DNA of 40,084 nt from Corallococcus llansteffanensis. Its GTDB lineage: Bacteria > Myxococcota > Myxococcia > Myxococcales > Myxococcaceae. The notes under the pieces were generated by a model. That model searched no databases. It saw only the letters and a list, made by a program, of their open reading frames with translations, and was not told the DNA's origin. Both the position numbers and the translations under genes were made by a program. Position 1 is the stretch's first letter; each line of letters begins with the position of its first letter. This document shows, in pieces, positions 6,112-13,218 of the stretch. The stretch covers positions 1-40,084 of the forward strand of contig NZ_RAWB01000016.1 in the NCBI RefSeq assembly GCF_003612055.1. The letters are read 5' to 3'.

Positions 6112-6799
6112 GGGGCTTCCTTCCCCCGGTCACCATCTCCCCGAAGGTGCGCGGGTGCAGGGCGACGAGCACCACGTGGCCCACGGTGAAGAGGGCGAGC
6201 AGCGCGAGCACCAGCAGGTGCACCGCGCGCGCCGGGTCGTAGCCGCCGAAGAGCACGGTGAGCCCGCGGAGCTGCACGGGCTTGTAGAGGACGAGGCCGG
6301 AGAGGACGGACAGCGCGCCCAGCACGAGGGCCGACGTGTACGCCAGCCGCTGGAGGCCGTTGTAGAGCCCGGTCCGCGCGGGCGCGGGGCGCAGCCGCAG
6401 GTAGTACGCGAGCGTGGCCACGGCGTCGCGCGTGTCGCGGCGCGGGAGGAACAGGCGGCGGCGCCACTCGCCACTGAAGGCGAGGTAGAGCACGTACACG
6501 ACGCCGTTGAGGGTGAGGAACCACGCGAAGGCGAAGTGCCAGTGTCGCGCGCCCGCGAGCCAGTCCCCCAGCCGCAGCCACGACGGGGGCACGGCGTCCT
6601 GGAACGGATAGAGGGCGTAGTCCCGGCCGCGCGGGCCCAGGCGTGGATACGCGACGAGGATCTGCAAGCCGCTGGCGGCGAGGATGGCGAGCAGCGGCAC
6701 GTTGGCCCAGTGGGTGAGGCGGATGGGCCACGGCTGGGGACGGCGGGGCTCGGGCGGGTGCATGGGGTGGACCCCAGCATCGGAATTCGACGGGTGCAT
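6104..6799 (-). CDS. Cytochrome b561-type membrane subunit
   Basis: This protein of about 231 residues has four to five hydrophobic helices with paired histidines positioned for heme b: RLTHW near the first helix, ARHWHF, and AVHLL plus VGHVV in the last helix. This matches the b561/hydrogenase-type cytochrome b family that passes quinol electrons to an exported partner, here the molybdoenzyme whose start overlaps its end. Either ATG 6799 or ATG 6763 (MHPPEP) could be the start. The shorter form begins immediately before the conserved part, and neither has a strong ribosome binding site. Confidence 0.82.
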   Translation of the reverse strand: MHPSNSDAGVHPMHPPEPRRPQPWPIRLTHWANVPLLAILAASGLQILVAYPRLGPRGRDYALYPFQDAVPPSWLRLGDWLAGARHWHFAFAWFLTLNGVVYVLYLAFSGEWRRRLFLPRRDTRDAVATLAYYLRLRPAPARTGLYNGLQRLAYTSALVLGALSVLSGLVLYKPVQLRGLTVLFGGYDPARAVHLLVLALLALFTVGHVVLVALHPRTFGEMVTGGRKPHV

Positions 6800-6995
6800 C
6801 CCGGGCGAGCAGCGGGCTGCCGCTTGGAGAACGCCCGGGTGGAAAACTCATCGGACAACGGACGGGGAGGCGGCCCCGGAGGGCAGGACGCACACCCCGC
6901 GCGGGTCGGGCGTGGCGCGCGGCTCACGGGTTGGACGCGTCGCGCGGCTCGTGATGGTGTTCCTGCTCACAATGTCTTTTCAGGACGGTGCTGCC

Positions 6996-9620
6996 ATGAA
7001 GCGAACCCATGCGTTGCGGCTGGCGGGACTGCTGCTGCTGAGCACGTTCGGCTGCGTGGAGGAGGAGCCCGCCTTCGAGGTGGCTCCGTCCGGGGGCGTG
7101 CGGCTGGTGGTCGCCCTGCCGCGCTCGTTGGAGGCCGTCCCGGTGGCGGCGGTGACGTCCACGGTGACGCACGGCTCGGGGCCGGAGGAAGTGGTGCCGC
7201 TGGCGCTGACCCCGGAAGGCGGCGCGGCGTGGTCCGGTGACGTGGAGCCGGTGAGCTCGGGTGAGACGGTCGGGCTGCGCGTGGACGCCCTGGATGGCGC
7301 GGGCGCGGTGGTGGCCACGGCGAGCCTGGAGGAAGCGCTGCCGCTCTCGCTTCAGGGTGAGGCGCTGGTGGTGATGGTGCCGCATCCGGCGGGCGCGGTG
7401 GCGGGCCCGGGCAACACGGCACCTCGCATCCACGCGGTGGTGGCCTCGAAGGCCCGGGCGACCTTCGGCGAGGAGGTGCGGCTGCGCGCGTGGGCGAGCG
7501 ACCTGGAGCCGACCGACACCCTCACCTACGCCTGGAGCAGCTCCACGGGCTCGCTCGACTGCACGGGCGCCGAGTGCACGTTGACGGTCCTCCCCGAGCC
7601 CTATGCCGGGCTGGGGTCCCATTCCAACCTCAAGGACGGGCTGCGGGTGGAGGTCCGCGTCACGGACGCGCGCGGCGCGGTGTCCACGCTCCAGTTCCGC
7701 ATCGGGGCGGGCACCGTGGGCGCGGAGGGGTCGCTGGAGGACACGCGCTTCAACCGCTGGCCCGTGGTGCCTGCGGACGGGGAGCCCCGGCCGCTGGCCG
7801 TGGGCGCGCCGTTCCTCGTGCCGGCGGCGACCACGGACGAGGACGGGGCCTCGGATCCGCTGACGTATGCGTGGACCGCGACGTGCGATGGCACGTTCGA
7901 CGACGTCACACGGGCCACGCCCGTGTTCACTCCGACCGCGGAGCCCCTGGGCTGTACCTGCCAGTTGCATGGCGCCGTGAGCGACTCCTTCGGGGGCAGC
8001 GTGGGGCACATCGTGAGCCTGTGCGTGCGGCAGAGCGCGCCGCCGGTGCTGGGCGCCACGTCGCAGTCGGCGCCGAGCGCGCGTGCGGGCGAGCGCGTGA
8101 CCTTCACCGCGGCGGCGACGGATCCGCGCGGTGAGCCGCTGACGTTCACCTGGACGACCAACGCGGGCGCGGTGGGCACGGCGGTGGGGGACGGCACGAC
8201 GAGCACGGTGGACTGGACGGAGCTGTCCTGCGTGCCGCCGGACGTGACGCCCACGGTGGAGGTGACGGTGACGAACGCCTCGGGCGCGAGCGTGCGCCAT
8301 GCCTTCCCGGTGGAGTGGACGGACCGGCGCTGCGGCGCGCTGGCGGGCGCGTGCGCGTTCACGCTGGCGCCGGGGAAGGTGTCGCTGTCCGCGGACTGCG
8401 TGACACAGGGGCCGGTGTTCGTCCCGGACGGCTTCACGTTCGATGGCGCGGGGCACACGCTGACGGCGGTGGAGGACGCGGCCGCGGGCGAGCACTTCCA
8501 GGGCGCGGTGCTGCGCAACCGGGGCCCGGTGGCGAGCGTGCGCGGCGTGACGGTGACGGCGCGGAGCCTGTTGGACGTGTGTGACGCGGGCGCGTTGCGG
8601 CTGCGCGGCATCCTGCTGGAGGGCGCGACCGGCGCCATCGAGGACTCGGTGGTGGAGGCGCTGCACCAAGCGGGGAACCTGAGCGGCTGCCAGGAGGGCT
8701 TCGCCATCGAGGTGCGCAACGACGCGGCCGGCGCCGCCCAGGTGACGGTGGGCCTGAGGCGCAACCGGGTGACGGGCTACCAGAAGGCGGGCCTGCTCGT
8801 GGCGGGCAGGGTGGACGTGGCGGCCGAGGACAACGTCGTGGAGGGTGGAGGGCCGGTGGGCCACATCGCGCGCGTCGGCATCCAGCTCGCGTATGGGGTC
8901 TTGGGTCGGGTGGTGGACAACGAGGTGACGGGCAACGCGTACACGCCGGCCACGGACGCGGCCACCGGCATCCTGGTGGTGGGCGGCGCGGGGCGGCCGC
9001 TGTGCCACGACCTGCTCATCCAGGGCAACATGGTGACGGAGAACGACATCGGCATCAGCCTGTCGCAGGGGGAGGGCGGCTCCAGCGCGCCCTCGGAGGC
9101 CACGCGCATCCAGGTGCTGGAGAACGAGCTGAGCAAGGACACGCTGACGAACGGGGAGGGACCCGAACAGGGCTACCAGGTGGCCCTCTTCGACAACGGG
9201 GGTGCGAACCTGCTCAGCCGCAACCGGATCAGCGGTGATGGCTACGACCCGGCCGTCTTCCCGGACGAGGCGTTCGACGTGGTCGTGAAGACAGTGGGGG
9301 GCGAGCGGCAGGTGGCCTTCGCCACGCCGGCCCGCACCGTGGACGCGGGGGCCTGCTCCGAAGCGCTGGTGGTGCAGGGGCGGGACGCCGCGGGCAACCT
9401 GGCCTCGCTGGTGGATCCGGTGGTGGCGCTGGCCGCGTCGGACGCGGGAGCGACGTTCCACCTGCAACCGGATTGCTCGGACGCGGCGGTGGCGTTGGTG
9501 AGCCTCGCGGGCGCGCAGCGGGAGGGCGTCTTCTACGTGCGCTCCGGCGCTGCGGGCGTGGTGACGGTGACGGCGACAGGGGACGGCGTGAGCGCGACGC
9601 AGGAGCAGACGGTCCGCTGA
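6996..9620 (+). CDS. Large lipoprotein with Ig/PKD-like and right-handed beta-helix regions
   Basis: This 874-residue protein starts with a short signal and lipobox (LLLLSTFGC, Cys20), so it should be lipid-anchored in the envelope. Residues of about 120-440 contain three Ig/cadherin-like modules recognisable by repeats such as DPLTYAWTA and EPLTFTWTT (PKD-type YxW strands). Residues of about 470-760 hold a Cys-rich entry and then repeated short N/D-G-rich rungs (RNRVTGYQ, DNVVEGGG, DNEVTGNAY, GNMVTENDIGI, RNRISGDGY) that match NosD/pectate-lyase-like beta-helix repeats. A final beta-rich domain follows. A role in surface polysaccharide binding or adhesion is likely but unproven. ATG 6996 has AGGACG upstream; longer starts give no signal peptide. 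Confidence 0.8.
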   Translation: MKRTHALRLAGLLLLSTFGCVEEEPAFEVAPSGGVRLVVALPRSLEAVPVAAVTSTVTHGSGPEEVVPLALTPEGGAAWSGDVEPVSSGETVGLRVDALDGAGAVVATASLEEALPLSLQGEALVVMVPHPAGAVAGPGNTAPRIHAVVASKARATFGEEVRLRAWASDLEPTDTLTYAWSSSTGSLDCTGAECTLTVLPEPYAGLGSHSNLKDGLRVEVRVTDARGAVSTLQFRIGAGTVGAEGSLEDTRFNRWPVVPADGEPRPLAVGAPFLVPAATTDEDGASDPLTYAWTATCDGTFDDVTRATPVFTPTAEPLGCTCQLHGAVSDSFGGSVGHIVSLCVRQSAPPVLGATSQSAPSARAGERVTFTAAATDPRGEPLTFTWTTNAGAVGTAVGDGTTSTVDWTELSCVPPDVTPTVEVTVTNASGASVRHAFPVEWTDRRCGALAGACAFTLAPGKVSLSADCVTQGPVFVPDGFTFDGAGHTLTAVEDAAAGEHFQGAVLRNRGPVASVRGVTVTARSLLDVCDAGALRLRGILLEGATGAIEDSVVEALHQAGNLSGCQEGFAIEVRNDAAGAAQVTVGLRRNRVTGYQKAGLLVAGRVDVAAEDNVVEGGGPVGHIARVGIQLAYGVLGRVVDNEVTGNAYTPATDAATGILVVGGAGRPLCHDLLIQGNMVTENDIGISLSQGEGGSSAPSEATRIQVLENELSKDTLTNGEGPEQGYQVALFDNGGANLLSRNRISGDGYDPAVFPDEAFDVVVKTVGGERQVAFATPARTVDAGACSEALVVQGRDAAGNLASLVDPVVALAASDAGATFHLQPDCSDAAVALVSLAGAQREGVFYVRSGAAGVVTVTATGDGVSATQEQTVR

Positions 9621-9784
9621 TCCGCGGCGTGCAGGCAGTTCTCGTCGCTCCACGTGCGCGCGGAGCGACGGGTGACCGACTGGCGGTCCGGGATGCAGAC
9701 CGTCTGCTGAACCGTGGCACGAGGGCGACCCTCGTTGCTCCGAGTGCGCATGGATCGTCGGGGTGCCCGACTGGCGGTCCGGGT
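9605..9784. repeat. Two imperfect tandem copies of a 90-bp unit
   Basis: Copy 1 (9605-9694) begins with GCAGACGGTCCGCTGA, which includes the stop codon of the preceding lipoprotein gene. Copy 2 (9695-9784) begins with GCAGACCGTCTGCTGA. Both end with CGACTGGCGGTCCGGG, offset by exactly 90 bases. The middle parts are diverged but alignable, and each contains a hairpin at the same place. The unit therefore arose by duplication of the gene's 3' end and trailer. Confidence 0.85.
9641..9672 (+). terminator. Stem-loop after the large lipoprotein gene
   Basis: GTCGCTCC (9644-9651) pairs perfectly with GGAGCGAC (9662-9669) around a 10-base loop, and the stem extends by three further pairs including one G-U. 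It starts about 20 bases after the stop codon at 9618-9620. There is no T-tract, as is common for hairpin terminators in GC-rich genomes. The second 90-bp copy carries the same hairpin at 9731-9762 with two mismatches. Confidence 0.6.
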
Positions 9785-9844
9785 GGGAACGACGGACGGC
9801 ACAACGCATTCGCCTCGTGAGGACGGGCGCGGTACACGGGGCGC

Positions 9845-11737
9845 GTGCTCGGACGGACGGTCATCACCTGGGTGGGGCTCTGCCTCCTGCTGCTGCTTTC
9901 CGCGTGTGCGCCGCGCGCCGTGAGACGGGGTGTGCCCGGTGGGCCGGAGGACGTGGCCCGCGTGTACCTGGAGGCCTGGACGCGCAACGACCTCGTCGCC
10001 CAGCACGGGATGCTCGTGGAAGCGCCCGCGGACTTCGATGCGCAGCACGCGAGGTGGCGGCAGGCGCTGGGCGTCGTGGCCTCGCGCTTCGAGGGAATCG
10101 ACCTCGAGTCCGAGGACGAAGTCGCCGCGGTGGTGGTCTTCCGCGCGGTGCACACGCTGCGAGGCCTGGGGGACTGGGAGGTGGAGTCGCGGCTGCGCTT
10201 CGAGCGCCGGGGGAAGCGCTGGGTCGTGCGCTGGACGCCGGAGGTGTTCCACCCCGAGGCGCGCATCGGAGACAGCTTCGGGCGCCTGCGAGCCTGGGGG
10301 CCGCGAGCCGCATTGCTCGACGTGACCGGGGCGCCGCTCACCGTGCCCGGAGAGGTGATCAGCATCGGGGTGTACCCGGGGCGGGTGCGGGACGGCGCGG
10401 CCGTGGCCCAGGCGCTCCAGACGCAGCTCGGGCTGGATCCCACGCGGGTCCAGGCGGTCCTGAGGTCCGGGGGAGCGCAGCCCGAGCAGTTCCTCGCGCT
10501 CATCGACGTGCGACCGGAGCGCTACCAGCAGGTGCGGCCCGTGCTCGCGCCGGTGCCGGGCATCTTCTTCCGCAAGAAGACCGCGCGCCTCACCCCGGCG
10601 GAGGGCTTCGCCGCGCACACGCTGGGACGGGTGGGCGAGGTGACGGCCGAGGCGCTCCAGGCGCTGGGCCATCCCTATCAAGCAGGGGACCTCGTGGGCC
10701 TGTCCGGCCTGGAGCGCGCACAGGAGCGAACGCTGGCCGGAAGCCCCTCGGGAGAGGTGCGGCTGGTGCGCCGCTCCGGAGAGAGCGTGGTGCTGCACCG
10801 CTTCGACGGCGCGCCAGGGACACCCGTGCGCACCACGTTGCGCAGGGAGGTGCAGGCGGCGGCGGAAGCAGCGCTCCTGGACGTCACGCAGCCCTCGGCG
10901 CTGGTCGCGGTGGACACGGCGACAGGCGAGGTGCTGGCGGTGGCCAGCCGACCCCTGGGCGAAGCACTGCACCGCGCGCTGACGGGGCGCTATCCCCCGG
11001 GCTCCACGTTCAAGGTCGTGACCGCCGAAGCGCTGCTCGCGAGCGGCTTGAAGCCAGACACCCGGGTGGACTGCCCGGTGGAGGCGGCCGCGGGCCGCAG
11101 GCGCTTCCGCAACTTCGAGTCCGAGGCCTTCGGCGCGTCGACCCTGCGGCAGGTGTTCGCGCTCTCGTGCAACACGGCGTTCATCCAGCTCTCCGCGAGG
11201 TTGAACCGCAGCGCGCTGGAGGATGCGGCCCGGCGCTTCGGCTTCGGCGTCCGCTACGACGTGGGGCTGCCCTCGCCGGGGGCCACCTTCCCGGAGCCCC
11301 AGGACGACGCCGACCGGGCCGCGGCATCCATGGGGCAGGGCAGGGTGCTGGCCACGCCGCTGCACATGGCCACGGTGGCGGCGGCGGTAGACACGGGCCG
11401 CTGGCACGCACCGCGCCTGCTGGCGGATGCGGAACCGGGCCCGGAGGAGTCCCTGCGCGCGGGCACCCCGGAGGCGCTCAGGAACCTCATGCGCGCGGTG
11501 GTGATGGAAGGCACGGCGAAGTCCGCGGCGGGCATCCAGGGGCTGATGGGCAAGACGGGAACGGCGGAGTTCGGCACGCTGGTCCCGCCGGAGACCCACG
11601 CCTGGTTCATCGGCCTGCGGGGCGGCATCGGCTTCGCGGTGTTCGTGGAGGGAGGGGGCGTGGGAGGCCGCGTCGCCGTCCCCCTCGCGACGCGCTTCCT
11701 CCAGGAGCTGGACGCAACGCAATCGTCCGGGCGCTGA
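9845..11737 (+). CDS. PBP2a (MecA)-like class B transpeptidase, predicted lipoprotein
   Basis: The 630-residue product begins with a signal and lipobox (LLLLLSAC, Cys21). Residues of about 33-140 form an NTF2-like domain like the MecA N-terminal domain, about 150-330 resemble the PBP dimerisation region, and about 335-625 form the transpeptidase domain. All active-site motifs are present: STFK at 387-390, SCN at 441-443 and KTG at 570-572, so it should be able to cross-link peptidoglycan and bind beta-lactams. MecA-type proteins are normally held by a membrane helix; here a lipid anchor is predicted. The start is a GTG with a weak upstream site. A serine hydrolase gene follows 32 bases later. 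Confidence 0.85.
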   Translation: MLGRTVITWVGLCLLLLLSACAPRAVRRGVPGGPEDVARVYLEAWTRNDLVAQHGMLVEAPADFDAQHARWRQALGVVASRFEGIDLESEDEVAAVVVFRAVHTLRGLGDWEVESRLRFERRGKRWVVRWTPEVFHPEARIGDSFGRLRAWGPRAALLDVTGAPLTVPGEVISIGVYPGRVRDGAAVAQALQTQLGLDPTRVQAVLRSGGAQPEQFLALIDVRPERYQQVRPVLAPVPGIFFRKKTARLTPAEGFAAHTLGRVGEVTAEALQALGHPYQAGDLVGLSGLERAQERTLAGSPSGEVRLVRRSGESVVLHRFDGAPGTPVRTTLRREVQAAAEAALLDVTQPSALVAVDTATGEVLAVASRPLGEALHRALTGRYPPGSTFKVVTAEALLASGLKPDTRVDCPVEAAAGRRRFRNFESEAFGASTLRQVFALSCNTAFIQLSARLNRSALEDAARRFGFGVRYDVGLPSPGATFPEPQDDADRAAASMGQGRVLATPLHMATVAAAVDTGRWHAPRLLADAEPGPEESLRAGTPEALRNLMRAVVMEGTAKSAAGIQGLMGKTGTAEFGTLVPPETHAWFIGLRGGIGFAVFVEGGGVGGRVAVPLATRFLQELDATQSSGR

Positions 11738-11769: not shown

Positions 11770-13218
11770 ATGAACTGGAGCCCTGTGCGCCTGCTGAGCC
11801 TGTTCGCCGCGTTCCTGCTGTTCACCCCCGCCGCCTTCGCTGCCGCGCCGAAGCCGCAGGAGTTGGATCGGCTCATCACGAAGTACCACCAGCTGCGCCA
11901 GTTCAACGGCGTCGCGCTGGTCGCGGACGAGAAGGGGGTCATCTTCAAGAAGGCCTACGGCTCCGCGAACTTCGAATGGCAGGTGCCGAACACGCTGGAC
12001 ACGAAGTTCCGCATCGCCTCCATCACGAAGCAGTTCACCGCGATGGTCATCCTGCAGCTCGTCGCCGAGGGGAAGCTCAAGCTCGATGACACGCTCGTCA
12101 CCCTCCTTCCCGACTACCGGAAGGACACGGGCTCCCGCGTCACCCTCACCCACCTGCTCAACCACACCTCGGGCATCCCCAGCTACACGAACGCCCCCGG
12201 CTTCTTCGAGAAGAACTCGCGCCTCCCGTCCACGGTCGCGGACTTCGTGAAGGCGTCCGCCAGCGGCGACCTCGAGTTCGAGCCCGGGTCCAAGTTCGCC
12301 TACAACAACTCCGGCTACTTCCTGCTCGGCGCCATCATCGAGAAGGTCACCGGCAAGACGTACGCGCAGGCCGTGCAGGAGCGCATCTTCGACAAGGTCG
12401 GGATGAAGAACTCCGGCTACGACGTCCAGGCGACGGTGCTCCCCAAGCGCGCGAGCGGCTACGAGCTCCGGCCGGAGGGCTACATCAACGCCCCCTACCT
12501 GGACATGGGCCTCCCGTACGCGGCCGGCTCGCTGTACTCCACGGTGGAGGACCTCTTCCTCTGGGACCGGGCGCTCTACCAGGACACGCTGCTGCCCGCG
12601 GCGCTCAAGCAGAAGATGTTCACGCCGGGCCTGGGCGACTACGGCTTCGGCTTGTCCATCAGGAAGGTGAAGCTGAGCGACGACAAGACGGAGGTCGCCA
12701 CCATCAATCACAGTGGCGGCATCAACGGCTTCAGCTCCTTCATCATCCGCGTTCCGGAGCGGAAGGAGGTCGTCATCCTCTTCGACAACACCTCGCGCGG
12801 CGACAAGATCCAGACGATCTCGACGGACCTGCTCAGCGTCCTGCATGGCCTCACGCCCCGGCCGCCCCGGCTCGACGTCCGGGAGCTCTTGAGCGCGATG
12901 CTCGCCAAGGCGCCCGTCGCGGAAGCCATCGCGCGGTACCGCGACCTCAAGGCCACGAAGGCGGACGCGTATGACTTCTCCGAAGGCCAGCTCAACAGCC
13001 TGGGCTACCAGCTGCTGCGCTCCGGGCGCGTCACGGACTCCATCGAGATCTTCAAGCTGAACGTGGAGATGTACCCCAAGAGCGGGAACCTCTACGACAG
13101 CCTGGGCGAGGCGTACCTGGCCCACGGGGACAAGGCGCTGGCGAAGGTGAACTACAGCAAGGCCGTGGAGCTGGACCCCACCAACACCAGCGCCGCCGAA
13201 GTGCTCAAGAAGCTCTGA
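11770..13218 (+). CDS. Secreted serine hydrolase, beta-lactamase class C / PBP fold, with TPR tail
   Basis: The protein has 482 residues and a classical signal peptide ending near AAFAAAP. The class C beta-lactamase/DD-peptidase motifs are present: SITK at 84-87 (nucleophile Ser84), YNN at 178-180 and HSG at 314-316. The last 80 or so residues form about two TPR-like repeats ending with NYSKAVELDPTN. Family members include esterases, D-aminopeptidases and DD-carboxypeptidases, and a true beta-lactamase role cannot be assumed. It follows the PBP2a-like gene by 32 bases on the same strand, so the two may be co-transcribed and work on the cell wall together. Confidence 0.87.
   Translation: MNWSPVRLLSLFAAFLLFTPAAFAAAPKPQELDRLITKYHQLRQFNGVALVADEKGVIFKKAYGSANFEWQVPNTLDTKFRIASITKQFTAMVILQLVAEGKLKLDDTLVTLLPDYRKDTGSRVTLTHLLNHTSGIPSYTNAPGFFEKNSRLPSTVADFVKASASGDLEFEPGSKFAYNNSGYFLLGAIIEKVTGKTYAQAVQERIFDKVGMKNSGYDVQATVLPKRASGYELRPEGYINAPYLDMGLPYAAGSLYSTVEDLFLWDRALYQDTLLPAALKQKMFTPGLGDYGFGLSIRKVKLSDDKTEVATINHSGGINGFSSFIIRVPERKEVVILFDNTSRGDKIQTISTDLLSVLHGLTPRPPRLDVRELLSAMLAKAPVAEAIARYRDLKATKADAYDFSEGQLNSLGYQLLRSGRVTDSIEIFKLNVEMYPKSGNLYDSLGEAYLAHGDKALAKVNYSKAVELDPTNTSAAEVLKKL

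Follow-up and report, generated by a model that had tools for sequence, protein, structure and literature searches.

Short tandem duplications arise spontaneously in bacterial intergenic DNA, and the locus presented here is compared with them, with intrinsic terminators and with dispersed palindromic repeats. Clusters of hairpins have been reported or proposed to act as terminators with no requirement for a U tract (PMC8355165). This report addresses a repeated stop codon and hairpin in a window of 40,084 nucleotides (the whole stretch of DNA that was analysed) from contig NZ_RAWB01000016.1 of Corallococcus llansteffanensis. We read the repeat as one old tandem duplication of spacer DNA, which, whatever the age of the event, is very probably drifting neutrally. 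Among the matches listed in our literature searches, no paper on this spacer could be recognized by its title or the start of its abstract, and none of those listed for one of the searches named Corallococcus.

The spacer lies between two genes. The upstream gene (6684 to 9620; + strand, as are the downstream gene, the promoter-like block, the copies, the hairpins and the inverted repeat described below) encodes an Ig/PKD-domain-like protein, for which the Pfam model Big_9 passes its cut-off while PKD_4 does not. The true start of the gene may lie at an internal ATG (6996), where, by eye, a lipoprotein-like signal begins. The downstream gene (9845 to 11737) encodes a PBP2-like transpeptidase with a MecA_N-like N-terminal domain, matching Pfam Transpeptidase (2.5e-40) and PBP_dimer (2.9e-18), with MecA_N below the cut-off; the NCBIfam model pbp2_mrdA gives 5.8e-64, yet is also below its cut-off. 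Directly behind the transpeptidase gene, at 11770 to 13218, lies a serine beta-lactamase-like gene whose C-terminal TPR matches fall short of their cut-offs.

The repeat consists of two head-to-tail copies, at about 9605 to 9694 and 9695 to 9785, with 68 of 90 aligned bases equal and one gap of a single base. The unit comprises the end of the Ig-domain gene, of which the last 4 codons and the stop (TGA 9618-9620) are inside copy 1, and most of the spacer before the transpeptidase gene. Both copies open with GCAGAC(G/C)GTC(C/T)GCTGA, bearing out the element with its TGA that the earlier note had described. The vestigial TGA of copy 2 (9708-9710) is downstream of, and in frame with, the TGA at 9618-9620, with 29 open codons between them. 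The earlier note had called the whole an exact-period 90-bp tandem duplication; the two adjacent copies are where it placed them, but the period is not exact, as the spacing is 90 over most of the unit and 91 in a 23-base stretch close to its end. Without gaps, at lag 90, 57 of 90 bases agree between the copies.

These adjacent direct copies are far above the chance level. The local score between the copies is 91, whereas 2000 dinucleotide shuffles reached no more than 55, and 658 adjacent pairs taken every 60 bases elsewhere in the window no more than 46. Tandem Repeats Finder, at a minimum score of 30, did not include the duplication at 9605-9785 in its output, and a gapless scan of lags 60-399 placed it third, below lag 368 (61/90) and lag 69 (58/90) elsewhere in the window. 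An assembly error is an unlikely source of the repeat, given that roughly one position in four differs between the copies. The search of the genome for the 90-bp unit that the earlier note had proposed found no further copy: beyond the locus and its own inverted match, nothing was better than E 0.02 (40 of 58 first-look candidates scored). A dispersed repeat, REP-like or MITE-like, was rejected on this search of the own genome.

The orthologous spacers of the genus are a means of reading the repeat. The genus set comprises 16 genomes including the source genome, G000, and the locus was found in all 16, with an orthologous spacer in each, although of variable length. The nearest relatives in the set are G002 (taken as Corallococcus sp. 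CA053C) and G005 (C. sicarius CA040B), with 727 and 722 of 800 bases of the downstream gene (9861-10660) identical to the window, and about 86% for the next relatives. Both carry one unit at the orthologous site, and these single-copy orthologues match both copies. When each of the 16 spacers was compared with itself, this duplication appeared in G000 only (score 91; maximum of 60 shuffles 39, the shuffles being split at a coarser set of points than the real sequence, a difference with a slight bias toward repeat detection). In 14 of the 15 other genomes, no spacer self-repeat rose above the shuffles, and the remaining one, G014 (L038), has a different tandem duplication (score 52; shuffle maximum 38). 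The G014 repeat carries a second, diverged copy of the promoter-like block discussed below. We take it as an independent event, because it involves that block and not the stop codon.

A further observation concerns G007 (L032), in whose spacer the stop codon is followed by 129 additional bases, predicted to form a strong stem. The best of 10 comparisons of these bases was with copy 2, for which 5/1000 and 2/1000 dinucleotide shuffles reached the score, followed by G002 (40/1000 and 29/1000). There was no resemblance to the proximal unit of G007 itself (479 and 276 of 1000), to G013, taken as C. terminator CA054A (905 and 789), or to G009, taken as C. praedator CA031B (899 and 713). With 300 single-base shuffles, the copy 2 score of 37 exceeded the shuffle maximum of 35, while the copy 1 score of 32 stayed below its shuffle maximum of 34. 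We regard the resemblance of the G007 bases to copy 2 as borderline. The unit itself, which the earlier note had suggested looking for in relatives, is there as a single copy in G002 and G005 within a spacer orthologous in 16/16, but its duplication was seen in none of the 15 others. The earlier note had named a lack of conservation in relatives as one part of what would speak against its reading, and for the duplication such a lack is what the 15 other genus genomes present, with G007 as the one borderline resemblance.

The hairpin of copy 1 (9643 to 9670) has 12-base arms, 9643-9654 and 9659-9670, which form 11 of 12 pairs in a stable, G+C-rich stem with a single A-C mismatch, so that the first stem, reported earlier as intact, is nearly so. 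Its damaged counterpart in copy 2 (9733 to 9760) can pair at 9 of 12 positions; with the alignment read by eye, it has three mismatches and two G-U pairs rather than the two mismatches previously counted. The best local hairpin of copy 1 is at -24.5 kcal/mol and that of copy 2 at -19.4, and the predicted fold of copy 2 relies on pairs other than those of 9733-9760. The duplication also created an inverted repeat (9604 to 9708), in which 9604-9617 is 93% complementary to 9695-9708 and encloses hairpin 1, because GCAGACCGTCTGC is itself palindromic (by eye). Folded as a whole, 9600-9800 has a z of -3.71, with 0/200 shuffles as good, a value that includes the stem between both copies of the palindromic unit start. 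Single copies alone, against mononucleotide shuffles, give z of -1.55 (copy 1) and -1.32 (copy 2). In the 13 other genomes with usable rows, only the spacer of G004 (-2.18) folds below -2; the rows of G013 and G009 were not used as they included extra downstream sequence, the G013 row having the lowest z of all (-2.49).

The covariance analysis of the stem proposed in the earlier note found no covarying pairing among seven sequences, namely the two copies plus one sequence from each of 5 other genus genomes (of 15), selected because their spacers align with the unit. The stem pairs in 73.8% of cells, compared with a column-shuffle mean of 73.4, with 272/500 shuffles reaching the observed value, and one pair is changed on both sides compared with a shuffle mean of 2.0. 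Sliding the stem along the alignment gives lower pairing, 26-57%. In more distant relatives, the core pairs with different partners in the predicted folds (by eye). Most of these G+C-rich spacers are predicted to form some stem, none of them covarying. Within the arms of hairpin 1, three private changes were read by eye: one creates a pair from a mismatch, another replaces G-U by C-G and the third breaks a pair; hairpin 1 appears strengthened.

The age of the copies was addressed with an alignment and trees of the unit, comprising both copies and the 5 of 15 other genus genomes with spacers alignable with it, the other 10 being left out. Copy 1 and copy 2 are identical at 68/89 positions, copy 1 and G002 at 70/87, copy 1 and G005 at 74/88, copy 2 and G002 at 72/88, copy 2 and G005 at 72/89, and G002 and G005 at 76/88. 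Private changes number 8 in each copy, 5 in G002 and 4 in G005, and the equal numbers in the two copies fit drift. From these comparisons, the duplication may date to around the split from G002 and G005, before or after it. Since the copies differ more from each other than from the single-copy orthologues (80-84% identity), the event may predate that split, with later losses. It is possible, albeit doubtful, that the copies are older than the split and that recombination between the repeats later removed one copy from each of G002 and G005, a matter of age only that is compatible with neutrality. The tree uniting the copies scores worst of the four tested (AU p 0.075), and of three informative sites, one joins the copies, and the other two group copy 1 with G005 and copy 2 with G002. 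Against this greater age stands the need for losses, either in each of the two relatives or in an ancestor that they share. The informative sites number only three, and none of the four trees is rejected by the AU test.

Functional readings of the repeat, as a double terminator or a small RNA, had been offered in the earlier note. As a double transcription terminator, two successive hairpins without U tracts would terminate the upstream transcript and serve as an insulator of the transpeptidase gene. The site just behind a stop codon and ahead of the promoter-like block suits this role, as do the two local hairpins and the excess folding of 9600-9800 over shuffles; and because hairpins without a U tract have been proposed as terminators (PMC8355165), the reading keeps some probability. 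On the other side, terminator-like sites with a T run number 0 in 9300-10100, and neither stem is followed by a T run; since just 0.1 site is expected there by chance, the missing site is mild evidence. The second stem is damaged, the pairing in the seven sequences is at the level of column shuffles, and single copies and all but one of the usable relatives' rows fold unremarkably. We consider a double terminator unlikely. The description of a duplicated stop-codon and terminator module holds for the DNA, in that a stop and a hairpin were copied, but the role of terminator is without support.

A structured small RNA, or one derived from the 3'-UTR, that was duplicated would be in keeping with the whole-region fold of the 201-base stretch, but no Rfam family matches 9000-10300 even when hits up to E 1 are admitted, covariation is absent among the seven sequences, and the copies alone fold weakly; a processed small RNA is very improbable. 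As far-fetched is a division of labor, in which copy 1 would have tightened to a strong terminator without a U tract or a stabilizer of the 3' end, while copy 2 and the palindromic junction would form an enclosing stem capable of switching with hairpin 1 and so of setting the read-through into the cell-wall transpeptidase gene. The remnant of a longer repeat-protein tail, also raised in the earlier note, was rejected, as the protein ends at one common stop, at the same position (TGA 9618-9620) in 16/16 aligned genus genomes, and the copied DNA is mostly spacer. The duplication adds no function that is supported here.

Outside the duplication, a promoter-like block of the downstream gene (9809 to 9834) carries TCGCCTC in 16/16 aligned spacers. 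Positions 9809-9841, with the block TTCGCCTC...GCGCGGTACACGGG right before the transpeptidase start, are among the best conserved parts of the spacer, and the exact pattern of the block occurs once in the genome. The block may act as a promoter, in which case the transpeptidase gene would be leaderless or nearly so; a sigma-70 scan of 9300-10100 found no promoter.

We propose that one tandem duplication event, spanning about 90 bases, gave rise to a second copy of the upstream gene's last codons together with most of the spacer, and that it ended short of the promoter-like block. Template slippage or some other illegitimate event in replication is its probable origin. Slippage on a heptamer common to the gene end and the unit end is, by eye, unlikely, because the junction keeps both surrounding sequences. 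The original stop still ends the upstream gene, while all of copy 2, its stop and hairpin included, would represent neutrally drifting spacer. Neutrality is suggested by the untouched state of both the true stop and the promoter-like block ahead of the transpeptidase gene. Hairpin 1 might still help to end or stabilize the upstream mRNA, as it might in a single-copy spacer. Against this account count the divergence of the copies, which is greater between them than from the single-copy orthologues, the fold of 9600-9800, to which the duplicated palindrome contributes, the apparent strengthening of hairpin 1 and the borderline match of the G007 bases to copy 2. Given the single-copy spacer in the closest relatives, the duplication looks like ordinary wear of the genome and not like a new element, and the different duplication in G014, together with the variable spacer length, is as expected for loosely constrained DNA.

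In itself, the repeat in this soil bacterium is of little importance. It illustrates that a stop-plus-hairpin repeat that looks designed can be recognized as a one-off spacer duplication through orthologous spacers. A possible wider use lies only in the conserved block ahead of the transpeptidase gene, a candidate for its promoter.

Compared with known systems, the repeat shares with an intrinsic (Rho-independent) terminator a stable hairpin behind a stop codon; however, there is no T run here, no covariation among the relatives compared, and the second copy is damaged. With REP-like and other dispersed palindromic repeats it shares a short palindromic intergenic unit, but no further copy was found in its own genome. 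With spontaneous short tandem duplications in bacterial intergenic DNA it shares the head-to-tail copies, the single copy in the nearest species examined, the unchanged coding genes and the symmetric drift. It differs from them in being old, its copies only 76% identical, so that the breakpoints and any homology at which they joined are no longer reliably readable.
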